Source: Billgrantia tianxiuensis (lineage in GTDB: Bacteria > Pseudomonadota > Gammaproteobacteria > Pseudomonadales > Halomonadaceae). Taken from it: a stretch of 64,000 nucleotides of DNA. The stretch lies in assembly GCF_009834345.1 (NCBI RefSeq), contig NZ_CP035042.1, forward strand, positions 682,001 to 746,000. The letters are read 5' to 3'. Position numbers and translations under genes: made by a program. The notes beneath the pieces were generated by a model, which worked only from the letters and a program-made list of their open reading frames with translations, was not told where the DNA came from and did not search any database. Positions 34,913 through 48,204 of this stretch are shown piece by piece. Numbering within the stretch: the first letter of the stretch is position 1; the number at the start of each line of letters is the position of its first letter.

Positions 34913-36226
<1,314 letters not shown>

Positions 36227-36257
36227 TTCATCCAACCGACGACATTGCTGACATTCT

Positions 36258-36275
36258 TGTAGGATATTTGCTACA
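36258..36275. promoter_or_regulatory. GacA/UvrY-type upstream activating sequence
   Basis: TGTAGG-N6-GCTACA, inside a larger perfect inverted repeat TTGTAG-N8-CTACAA (36257-36276). The consensus for GacA-controlled regulatory RNA genes is TGTAAG-N6-CTTACA: spacing is identical and 9 of 12 arm positions match. It lies about 150 bases before the first GGA hairpin of the RNA at 36420, within the range seen for rsm genes. No other target gene follows on the plus strand. Confidence 0.65.
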
Positions 36276-36309
36276 AAGAGGCGACGATTTAAGCTAATGG
36301 AAGCCTCAG

Positions 36310-36341
36310 AAGGTCGACACCTAAGGTGTCGGCCTTCTTTT
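36310..36341 (+). terminator. Rho-independent terminator of eno
   Basis: Twelve-pair stem (36310-36321 with 36325-36336, one G-U) with a three-base loop, followed by CTTTTAT. It separates the pyrG operon from the RNA gene downstream. Confidence 0.9.
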
Positions 36342-36419
36342 ATGTCTTTGTTTTAAAAGAATTCTGCTTGGAGGTGGTCAACCTGGGGCAGGCGATAAGG
36401 TTGCTTAGGGCGTGCTTGC

Positions 36420-36624
36420 GTCGTTTGGCGGAAATGCCAGAATGGACGTGGGACAAGGCAGAGCGGGAGGCTCTCCAGCAGGATGCAACGGGATGCTATT
36501 TGTGTGGCACGCCCGGTGTGACAGGAAGTCGCCTCCGGGCAGGGAAGATGCCACAGGAGAGAGGGCGGAGGGAGCCGCCCAAGGAAATGCTGGGAGCCGG
36601 GCGGCCTATGGGCCGCCTTTTTTT
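36420..36624 (+). ncRNA. rsmZ: Probable RsmZ/CsrB-type CsrA-sequestering regulatory RNA
   Basis: Between eno and fdxA lies a non-coding stretch with 13 GGA motifs in 36430-36595, many in hairpin loops: TGGC-GGAAAT-GCCA (36426-36439), GAGC-GGGAG-GCTC (36461-36473), GCA-GGA-TGC (36478-36486), GAC-AGGAA-GTC (36520-36530) and GGGCGG-AGGGAG-CCGCCC (36563-36580). It ends in a textbook terminator with seven T. This is the hallmark of RNAs that titrate CsrA/RsmA, and csrA is encoded at 48004. In P. aeruginosa rsmZ also neighbours fdxA and mutS. A GacA-like box lies upstream. The 5' end is not fixed; no clear -10 was found, so 36420 is approximate. Not confirmed by alignment to known family members. 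Confidence 0.8.
36600..36624 (+). terminator. Terminator of the RsmZ-like RNA
   Basis: GGCGGCC (36600-36606), TATG loop, GGCCGCC (36611-36617), then TTTTTTT (36618-36624). A strong plus-strand terminator with no upstream coding gene other than eno, which already has its own. Confidence 0.92.
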
Positions 36625-36641
36625 GCGTGTCGTGGTCAGGA

Positions 36642-36681
36642 AAATGTGCCGAGTGCTAGGCAACCCGGTACTCGGGCATTT
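36642..36681 (-). terminator. Probable terminator of fdxA
   Basis: Imperfect hairpin pairing AAATGTGCCGAGT (36642-36654) with ACTCGGGCATTT (36670-36681); on the minus strand it ends in ATTTTCC, 40-80 bases past the fdxA stop. Confidence 0.5.
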
Positions 36682-36723
36682 CCCGGCACTCAGCTATTAT
36701 TTGGTCGCAGAAAGCTGCGAGAC

Positions 36724-37046
36724 TCAGCGCTCCAGGTACTGCAGCTTGCCAGGCTTGCCGTCCCACTCCTCGGCGTCGGCCGGGGATCCTTCTTCTCCGC
36801 GATGTTGGGCCACACCTCGGAGAGTTCGGCATTGAGGGCAATGAACTCTTCCTGGCCCTCTGGTAGTTCATCTTCCGAGAAGATCGCTTCGGCAGGACAC
36901 TCGGGCTCGCACAGGGCGCAGTCGATACACTCGTCCGGATGGATTACCAGAAAGTTGGGCCCTTCGTAGAAGCAATCCACCGGGCAGACCTCGACGCAAT
37001 CGGTGTACTTGCACTTGATGCAGTTTTCGGTGACGACAAAGGTCAT
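36724..37046 (-). CDS. fdxA: 7Fe ferredoxin FdxA, frameshifted near the C-terminus in this sequence
   Basis: A small electron carrier with a 3Fe-4S and a 4Fe-4S cluster. [29 protein letters not shown] and [12 protein letters not shown] supply the cluster cysteines. The start at 37046 follows GGAGGGAG. The frame breaks late: after AEKKDP the next frame gives [12 protein letters not shown]...LER and a TGA at 36724-36726, the standard FdxA ending. Restoring one G in GGGG at 36782-36785 gives 107 residues, the family length; as read the frame runs to 36690. Convergent with the RsmZ-like RNA, between it and mutS, as in Pseudomonas. Confidence 0.93.
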
Positions 37047-37420: not shown

Positions 37421-40008
37421 CTACAGCTGCTTCCGCCAGGCATAGATCAACTCCAGCGCTTGGCGCGGCGTCAGCTCATCCGGGTCGAGGCCGGCTAGGG
37501 CGTCGAGCAGCGGGTGCGGCGCGGTGGCGAACAGGTCGCTCTGCATCGGCTTGGCTGCGTTGGCGTTATAGGTTTCGCCGCGACTGCTCTGGTCCACCTC
37601 CTGCTGCTCGAGCTGCGCCAACTTGTCGCGTGCGCGTGCAATGACGGATTGAGGCACGCCGGCCAGTTGGGCCACCTGCAAGCCGTAGCTTTGACTGGCA
37701 GGGCCCTCTTCCACCCGATGCATGAAAACGATGCCATCGCGGTGTTCGGCGGCGGTGAGGTGCACGTTGGCTACCCCCTCGGCCTGCTCGGCCAGCGCGG
37801 TCATCTCGAAATAATGGGTGGCGAACAGGGTGAAGGCGCGTGTGCGGGTCAGGTGCTCGGCGCTGGCCCAGGCCAGCGACAGGCCGTCGAAGGTGCTGGT
37901 GCCTCGCCCGATCTCGTCCATCAGCACCAGGCTATGGTCGGTGGCGTTGTGCAGGATACTGGCGGTCTCGGTCATCTCCACCATGAAGGTGGAGCGGCCG
38001 CCGGCCAGGTCGTCCGACGAGCCGATGCGGGTGAAGATGCGGTCCACCGGGCCGATGCACGCCTCGTCCGCCGGCACGAAGCTGCCGGTATGGGCGAGCA
38101 GGACGATCAGCGCCGCCTGGCGCATGTAGGTCGATTTACCGCCCATGTTGGGACCGGTGATGACCAGCATGCGGCGGCGGTCGTCGAGCATCAGGTCGTT
38201 GGGCACGAAGGGGGCGTCGCTGACGTGCTCCACCACCGGGTGGCGTCCGCCGCGAATCTCGATGCCCGGCGCTTCGGCGAGACGGGGCCGCGAGAAGCCG
38301 AGTGCCTGGGCGCGCTCAGCGAAGGCCGCCAGCACGTCCAGGGCGGCCAGAGCGCGGCCGGTGCCTTGGAGCGCATTGAGTTCGGCGTTGAGTGAATCGA
38401 GTAGGCCGTCGTAGAGCAGCTTCTCGCGGGCCAGGGCTCGCGACTTGGCCGACAGCGCCTTGTCCTCGAACTCCTTGAGTTCGGGGATGATGAAGCGCTC
38501 GGCGTTCTTCAGGGTCTGGCGCCGGATGTAGTCGACCGGTGCCTCGCGGGCCTGGGCGCGGGGGATCTCGATGTAGTAGCCGTGCACCCGGTTGTAGCCC
38601 ACCTTGAGGCCGGCGAGGCCGGTGCGCTCGCGCTCGCGGACCTCGAGCTGCACCAGGTAGTCGCCGGCATGCTCGGCCAGCCCGCGGTAGTCGTCGAGCT
38701 CGGCGTCGAAGCCTTCGCGAATCACGCCGCCGTCGCGAATTACCACGGGCGGGTTGTCGACCAGCCCACGGGCGAGCAGGTCGGCGAGTTCGGGGTAGGG
38801 GCGGATATGGTGACTCAGCTCGTCGAGTGCGGTGCCGTCACTGTAGCCGGCGAGTTCGCGCTCGAGTTCCGGCAGGGCCAGCAGGGCGTCGCGCAGGCGC
38901 GCGAGGTCTCGCGGTCGCGCACTGTAGAGCGCGACACGCGCAAGGATGCGCTCGACGTCGCCGATCGCCTTGAGCAACTCGCGCAGGGCCATGAAGCCCT
39001 CCTGCTCGAGCAGCAGGGCGACCGCCGCCTGGCGTCCCTGCACCTGGGCACGGTCGCGCAGCGGGCGGTTGAGCCAGCGCTTGAGCAGTCGCGAGCCCAT
39101 GGCGGTGGCGGTGGTGTCGAGCACACTGGCCAGGGTGTTGTCGCCGCTGCCGCCGAGGTTGGTATCGATCTCCAGGTTGCGACGGCTGGCGGCATCGATC
39201 ACCACGGCATCGTCGCGGCTCTCCACGCCGAGCGCGGTAACGTGAGGTAGCCGCGAGCGCTGGGTGTCGCGGGCATACTCGACCAGCACCCCGGCAGCGG
39301 TGAGTGCCGCTTGGAGATGAGCGCAGCCGAAACCGCGCAGATCCTGTACCTGGAATTGATCGCACAGCAGGCGGTTGGCGGTTTCGAGATCGAACAGCCA
39401 GTCGCTCTGGCGGCGCAGGCCCTGCCTTCCCTCCAGGGCGGGAGGCAGTGACAGGCTTTCGGGTACCAGCAGCTCCGCGGGATCGAGGCGCTGCAGTTCG
39501 GCGAGCATGTCCCTTCGCCCTCCACCTCCAGCACGCTGAAGCGTCCACTGGAAAGCTCCAGCCAGGCGATTCCCCAGCAGTCGCCGACGGGATGCACGGC
39601 GACCAACAGATTGTCGCGCCGGGCATCGAGCAAGGCCTCGTCGTGCAGCGTACCGGGGGTGACGATGCGCACCACGCGGCGCTCCACCGGTCCCTTGCTC
39701 GTCGCCGGATCGCCGATCTGTTCGCAGATCGCCACCGATTCGCCGGCTTTCACCAGGCGCGCCAAGTAGCCTTCGGCGCTATGGTAGGGCACCCCGGCCA
39801 TGGGAATCGGCTTGCCCGCGGACTGGCCGCGCTGGGTCAGGGTGATATCGAGTAGCGCGGCGGCGCGTCTGGCGTCGTCGAAGAACAGTTCGTAGAAGTC
39901 GCCCATTCGATAGAAGAGCAGCACGTCAGGGTGCTCGCGCTTGATCTTCAGGTACTGAGCCATCATCGGCGTATGGCTCGGCACATCCGTCTTGACCGCG
40001 TCGTTCAT
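37421..40008 (-). CDS. mutS: DNA mismatch repair protein MutS, frameshifted in this sequence
   Basis: Two overlapping frames give one 862-residue protein if a base is restored in CCC at 39511-39513 (coding [13 protein letters not shown]). N-terminus from 40008: [17 protein letters not shown] and the mismatch-contact [15 protein letters not shown] with the Phe-x-Glu reading motif. Then the connector, core and clamp domains, and the ATPase with Walker [39 protein letters not shown] and [14 protein letters not shown]. It recognises mispairs and recruits MutL. If the break were real the strain would be a mutator; error is more likely. Confidence 0.95.
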
Positions 40009-40161
40009 GCTTTCTCGGCTGGCTTGTCGGTTGTGTGGGGCATGGAAGAGAGCAAGGTTACCACGCCCCACCCGCGCTCGACATGCCGTAACAAAGCCAC
40101 GGCATCAGGAGGCGTCGTTTTGACCATAATGACTGGCGCCATTGGACAAAGGGAGGCATCC

Positions 40162-48003: not shown

Positions 48004-48204
48004 ATGCTCATCCTGACCCGCCGTGTCGGAGAAACGCTGATGATCGGTGATGACATCACCGTGACCGTCCTTGGCGTCAAGGGCAATCAGGTCCGCATTG
48101 GCGTCAATGCCCCCAAAGATGTCGCTGTGCATCGTGAAGAGATCTATCAGCGCATCCAACGGGAGAAATCCGACGAAGAAGGGGGAAGTGGTCCGTCTTC
48201 GTAA
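48004..48204 (+). CDS. csrA: Carbon storage regulator CsrA/RsmA
   Basis: A 66-residue dimeric RNA-binding protein: [40 protein letters not shown] (region 1-40, shown in part by its key residues Leu4, Arg6, Arg7 and the [10 protein letters not shown] helix with Arg44). Leu4 and Arg44, which contact GGA in target RNA, are kept. It represses translation of mRNAs with GGA near the ribosome-binding site and is titrated by CsrB/RsmZ RNAs such as the one at 36420. AGAAGGAGATCAGTC precedes the ATG. Confidence 0.97.

Follow-up and report, generated by a model that had tools for sequence, protein, structure and literature searches.

The sequence comparisons reported here indicate that an unannotated small-RNA gene lying between eno and fdxA of the salt-loving bacterium Billgrantia tianxiuensis (~36450-36624, + strand, of the 64-kb stretch of DNA analyzed, which we refer to as the window) is real. 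The fdxA and mutS genes adjoin this gap downstream on the other strand, as the sequence-only reading had stated and as the list of open reading frames and the FdxA family match confirm. The DNA of the RNA locus was found once in the genome by similarity search at E 0.001. The gap holds a conserved gene for a structured RNA in which GGA motifs are kept, together with a terminator, a promoter-like block and a putative upstream activating sequence (UAS), and the genome contains both csrA and gacA. The csrA gene does lie 11.4 kb away, as had been claimed, and the GacA protein scores 286.1 bits against a curated cutoff of 280 bits, its gene being positioned just before uvrC. Within the window the fdxA frame is shifted near its end, giving 118 amino acids compared with 107 in seven relatives, and mutS (37421-40071, - strand) is split between frames; with genome completeness at 95.2%, whereas most relatives reach 99-100%, assembly errors are likely at these two genes. 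An AT-rich patch at 36347-36370 is a conceivable IHF site.

Table 1. Features in and around the eno-fdxA gap, in window coordinates
Feature	Position	Strand	Basis and description
eno, upstream neighbor	34934..36226	+	Open reading frame; named in the sequence-only reading and by similarity
Putative GacA-type upstream activating palindrome TGTAGGATATTTGCTACA	36258..36275	+	Lies after the eno stop codon and before the eno terminator
Terminator-like hairpin of eno	36308..36338	+	Terminator scan; hairpin columns conserved in the gap alignment
Promoter-like block	36416..36443	+	TTGCGT, 16 bases, CAGAAT preceded by TG
Small RNA	36450..36624	+	~175 nt, 11 GGA; start predicted, ends with the T run; supported by alignment A1, model R1 and covariation
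Helix 36505-36509/36549-36553 enclosing helix 36511-36522/36528-36540	36505..36553	+	Apical loop AGGAA; double changes at 5/5 and 6/10 pairs
Hairpin GGGCGG-AGGGAG-CCGCCC	36563..36580	+	GGA in loop; 4/6 pairs with double changes; loop GGA 36571 in 56/56 copies
Intrinsic terminator of the RNA	36599..36624	+	8-pair stem 36599-36618, then seven T
fdxA, convergent neighbor	36690..37046	-	NCBIfam FdxA, 162.6 bits; frame shifted near its end in the window
csrA, presumed target protein	48004..48204	+	Only CsrA gene found in the genome

The extent of the RNA requires some revision. The sequence-only reading began it at 36420, which is ~30 bases too early: the promoter-like block, within which TTGNG and TGNCANAAT are conserved in the gap alignment, occupies the bases up to 36443, and the start should therefore be placed at ~36450. 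It follows that the GGA motifs at 36430 and 36444 fall in the promoter and precede the RNA. The 13 GGA motifs claimed within about 165 bases are indeed present in 166 bases (36430-36595; the motifs start at 36430, 36444, 36451, 36466, 36481, 36491, 36524, 36543, 36556, 36567, 36571, 36583 and 36593), but only 11 of these are inside the RNA. The proposed seven-T terminator is found as described, with its last T at 36624. The sequence signals of a free-standing non-coding transcript are in place (promoter-like block, terminator, no conserved frame), and we predict that the locus is transcribed; a simple consensus scan of 36200-36760 reported no sigma-70 promoter.

When 165-base windows were slid over the whole 64 kb, at least 12 GGA motifs were reached only in the stretch 36421-36609 of the + strand, the maximum on the other strand being 9. 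The RNA alone contains 11 GGA motifs compared with a mean of 6.9 in dinucleotide shuffles, and 96 of 5000 shuffles were as high. This excess is modest for a single RNA and the count by itself is weak evidence; significance comes from conservation rather than from the raw number of GGA motifs.

We sampled 61 genomes of the genus, 60 of which have a readable eno-fdxA gap. A search with positions 36250-36640 of the window matched 57 of the 61, the genome itself included. Of the four that it missed, one ends at a contig border, and in the other three the eno-fdxA gap equals the rest in size and GGA density. All 60 readable gaps contain a GGA-rich stretch, with 7-14 GGA on the RNA strand in the best 170-base window of each gap (at least 8 in 59 of the 60) and 2-10 on the other strand. 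The conserved islands in the gap alignment are the palindrome, the eno hairpin, the promoter-like block and the RNA itself (~36447-36624). Comparison of the gap between relatives, which had been suggested as a check on the sequence-only reading, thereby comes out in its favor: the gap is conserved throughout the genus and in most of the family, with its GGA sites kept.

Alignment A1 comprises 56 of the 60 copies, the other four (L037, L049, L052 and L054) having 124-134 extra bases, carrying 4-6 more GGA motifs, between promoter and RNA. The transcript in these four genomes may be about 300 nt long; their copies match model R1 over its full length at 96.1-131.2 bits. The R1 match in the window itself (36447-36624, 186.5 bits) is by construction, as the window sequence is in A1. 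Ten GGA sites are present in at least 48 of the 56 aligned copies (36451 in 53, 36481 in 54, 36491 in 53, 36524 in 54, 36543 in 55, 36556/36557 in 55, 36567 in 48, 36571 in 56, 36583/36584 in 55 and 36593 in 55). The eleventh, 36466, shifts position and lies within 36465-36467 in 38 of 56.

RNAalifold applied to A1 gives 34 pairs, 18 of them with compensating double changes. Pairing is possible in 97.8% of the cells of A1 compared with 91.4% in shuffles, and double changes fill 155 cells against 41.3 (sd 7.0) in shuffles, none of 500 shuffles being as high. If partners are instead slid along A1 the pairing falls to 36-49%, a comparison in which the structure is favored by its derivation from the same alignment. 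In the minimum free energy structure of 36450-36624, 8 of the 11 GGA motifs are unpaired, the exceptions (36556, 36567 and 36593) being wholly or partly paired. Three motifs (36491, 36524 and 36571) are located in hairpin loops, so that this part of the sequence-only reading stands but its figure of at least five does not. G residues within GGA motifs are also less paired than other G residues (mean unpaired probability 0.58 versus 0.28). Multiple conserved and mostly unpaired GGA motifs in a structured RNA mark the functional class of CsrA-titrating sRNAs, and they are found here.

The GacA-like box noted upstream of the RNA in the sequence-only reading is kept in 59 of 60 gaps, L058 being the sole readable genus gap that lacks it. 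The palindrome fits TGTAAG-N6-CTTACA, the GacA site of PMC4950607, and among the 59 copies TGTA is present in 58, whilst base 5 is A or G and base 6 is G in all 59. Genome-wide, a GacA-like pattern with up to two mismatches occurs 245 times against 243 for the reversed control, which is the chance level. The pattern alone says little, and the weight of this putative GacA-type box lies in its conservation at this place. GacA-like palindromes also occur in pairs with a spacing of exactly 23 bp, three such pairs being found in the genome (G000:C1:131544/131567, 167968/167991 and 1737229/1737252). The center of the UAS is positioned ~184 bp upstream of the predicted RNA start here and ~180-199 bp upstream in the 59 genomes; for P. 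aeruginosa, PMC4950607 places the GacA site at -196 for rsmZ and at -75 for rsmY. From the start of the UAS to the start of the -10 element the distance is 176-181 in 38 genomes, 188-195 in 21 and 182-187 in none (n = 59). We do not rely on an interpretation of these two spacing classes as one helical turn, as one inherited indel could give the same result.

Covariance scans with known families found nothing at the locus, as the sequence-only reading had foreseen. No Csr/Rsm family of Rfam reaches its gathering score in the window, and relaxing the threshold to E 10 over 561 bases brought up just one Csr-type line, a 31-base fragment of a Yersinia CsrC model at 13.7 bits. RF00166 (PrrB_RsmZ) at its curated 44 bits is found in none of the 61 genus genomes and nowhere in the window. 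Sub-threshold RF00166 matches at E up to 10 are present in 44 of the 61 genus genomes and also in 7 of 14 unrelated control genomes; 16 such places were inspected, 11 of which are a third class of RNA and two a second (both described below), with three looking like chance or coding DNA.

Across the order, RF00166 identified 28 places in 25 of the 244 genomes searched. Ten places in 9 genomes are over the cutoff, all of them in family f21, which we take to be Pseudomonadaceae. Seventeen of the 28 places, in 16 of these genomes, have a convergent fdxA gene within 1.5 kb, the other 11 being without fdxA nearby. Of these 17, seven are among the ten over cutoff and the other ten belong to 9 genomes from other families. 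All seven that are over cutoff have a UAS, centered 169.5-181.5 bp from the model start.

By position, the RNA described here corresponds to rsmZ. It shares with RsmZ/PrrB of Pseudomonas (RF00166) its many unpaired GGA motifs, its terminator, the convergent fdxA with mutS beyond, and a far-upstream GacA-type UAS (roughly 170-200 bp upstream). It differs in length, since the RsmZ/PrrB matches are 118-135 nt compared with ~175 nt, and on its other side, where the upstream neighbor of rsmZ in Pseudomonas is rpoS. The Pseudomonas-like neighborhood asserted by the sequence-only reading consequently holds for fdxA and mutS but not upstream, where eno takes the place of rpoS. R1 detects six of the seven fdxA-linked RsmZ places, at only 10.6-22.2 bits, and gives 16.1 and 14.9 bits for two other Csr-type RNAs of this genome. 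An argument for descent from rsmZ based on R1 score was accordingly rejected, and common descent is unproven by sequence because R1 scores RsmZ no better than other Csr-type RNAs. The fdxA neighborhood persists where the sequence is no longer recognizable, which suggests an old origin of rsmZ in this order, and we infer shared ancestry with Pseudomonas rsmZ.

Within the family, R1 at a threshold of E 0.01 finds 171 of 201 genomes, spread over 19 of 24 genera, some ten of the genomes matching weakly. In the order it matches 28 of 293 genomes at E 0.001, with no match above 31 bits outside the family. The RNA is recognized by both pattern and R1 in named members of Halomonas, Billgrantia, Vreelandella, Litchfieldella, Modicisalibacter, Franzmannia and Bisbaumannia, and of 57 pattern loci R1 matches 56, two of which are truncated by the locus end. 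An exact pattern match in an Opitutia MAG (L149) has no R1 match and was taken as chance. For a closer look we took 22 fdxA places from 20 genomes of the family, most of them picked because R1 matched weakly or not at all. The six genomes of genus g4 leave only 144-283 bp between the aligned ends of eno and fdxA, so the RNA is absent from this place in them, and several further genera of the family are likewise without it there. In two g5 genomes the sequence beside fdxA holds 15 and 13 GGA per 170 bases together with an intact GacA palindrome, and eno is not nearby. One control genome in this set (G075) shows the RNA. At the remaining inspected fdxA places the GGA count stays at 8 or fewer per 170 bases and no UAS is present; L279, one of these places, matches R1 weakly (15.5 bits). 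Tandem copies of the R1 RNA occur in genus g8, with three partly overlapping matches at G090:C1:1221641-1222184 and two at G104:C18:57950-58492. Likewise, two RsmZ-like RNAs in tandem beside fdxA are seen in other families of the order, in L197/L208 (G324), L200 (G351) and L191 (G261).

Taken with its genomic context, the RNA in all probability titrates CsrA as a member of the RsmZ/CsrB functional type, under the control of GacA, from the promoter at 36416-36443 to its own terminator. In this mechanism phosphorylated GacA would bind the palindrome and, from ~184 bp upstream, activate the promoter, producing a ~175-nt RNA that would end at its own terminator and whose unpaired GGA motifs would capture several CsrA dimers and so draw CsrA away from the mRNAs it targets. 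Titration of CsrA, the function originally put forward in the sequence-only reading, is very likely the correct one. It would be in common with CsrB/CsrC of enterics and with RsmY/RsmX, which are presumed to sequester CsrA under a GacA/UvrY-type regulator, but whose families have no match over cutoff in the window.

The RNA could combine CsrA titration with an action on the convergent fdxA gene, through antisense pairing or opposite-strand transcription. PMC9788540 proposes such a role for CsrR2 of Alcanivorax dieselolei, a CsrA-related sRNA detected by dRNA-seq beside a divergently annotated ferredoxin gene, and the convergent order of RNA and fdxA is kept both in the genus and at the 17 RF00166 places noted above. 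We nevertheless regard a second function as unlikely, as the fdxA frame stops at 36690, short of the RNA end at 36624, leaving the mapped parts without overlap. CsrR2, which we liken to our RNA by description, lies antisense to fdx and adjoins an hpt gene according to PMC9788540. The same source notes the fdxA-rsmZ parallel for CsrR2, so a link to fdxA outside Pseudomonas is already in print. Less probable still is a structured RNA with some other task, for example an Hfq-dependent antisense RNA, in which the GGA motifs are incidental to purine-rich loops. This would accord with the modest GGA excess over shuffles of the single sequence, CsrA binding here being predicted, but GGA sites are kept while stems change, they are preferentially unpaired, and the GacA-type UAS is kept with them. 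Hardly any credence can be given to a short protein gene or a mere 3' UTR of eno: the two overlapping open reading frames of 169 and 185 amino acids have no Pfam match, no frame through the RNA is open in more than 32 of the 56 copies, and the copy lengths fall in all three classes modulo 3, which led us to reject coding and upholds the earlier statement that the stretch contains no plausible gene, whilst eno has its own terminator-like hairpin followed by the conserved promoter-like block.

A table in a 2020 review (PMC7366521) lists Halomonas anticariensis as having GacS-GacA and CsrA, with its sRNA given as 'Unknown'. A copy of the CsrA-titrating RNA proposed here is present in this organism (Litchfieldella anticariensis FP35, L129) at 155.5 bits. 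The RNA is a candidate for the sRNA step missing from the Gac/Csr cascade of Halomonadaceae, a family used for salt-tolerant bioproduction. Current Rfam models miss this RNA, which is present in most genomes of a family, and A1 gives a covariance model that could be added to Rfam. The CsrA of H. hydrothermalis has been modeled, with sponge RNAs left to future models (PMC12889724). No Csr/Rsm RNA of Halomonadaceae is named in the titles and abstract starts of the literature searched, and an earlier prediction for the family may exist. What is new is very probably the RNA for Halomonadaceae, the CsrA-sponge type of regulator being already known.

Two further Csr-type RNAs are encoded in the genome. 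The second is located at ~G000:C1:1737887-1738051 (L241:888-1052, + strand; also L091 and L086) and has two GacA-like palindromes just upstream. The third belongs to a class of ~130-nt, GGA-rich RNAs with a terminator and lies here at G000:C1:2171778-2171906 (L272:1479-1607, - strand). Model R2, built from 11 loci of this third class, matches 58 of 121 family genomes and recovers the copy in this genome at 69.6 bits. Upstream of the third class are 11-bp Pho-box-like repeats, and a GacA box was not seen there. For 31 loci (30 and that of this genome) we scored the best set of four 11-bp half-site repeats, using the E. coli consensus as half-site, against 200 shuffles. In 20 of the 31 loci the repeats beat all 200 shuffles, and in 28 no more than 10 shuffles reached them; for the remaining three loci 24, 25 and 47 did. 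The third RNA of this genome has three good repeats, reached by 1 of 200 shuffles. In Halomonas sp. HAL1 the Pho box bound by PhoB consists of two 7-bp repeats with a 4-bp spacer (PMC4563254). We tentatively suggest, as a possibility falling somewhat short of even, that Halomonadaceae feed a single CsrA through three sponges, one behind a far GacA box, one behind two near GacA-like boxes, and one, after trmJ, behind Pho-box-like repeats. If this is true, phosphate starvation would titrate CsrA directly through PhoB. The third RNA behind its Pho-box-like repeats is perhaps the more novel point. Relatives of the third class are found in L079-L083, L085, L087, L090, L092-L094 and L242-L271, and in L242 the RNA is located after a trmJ-like gene.
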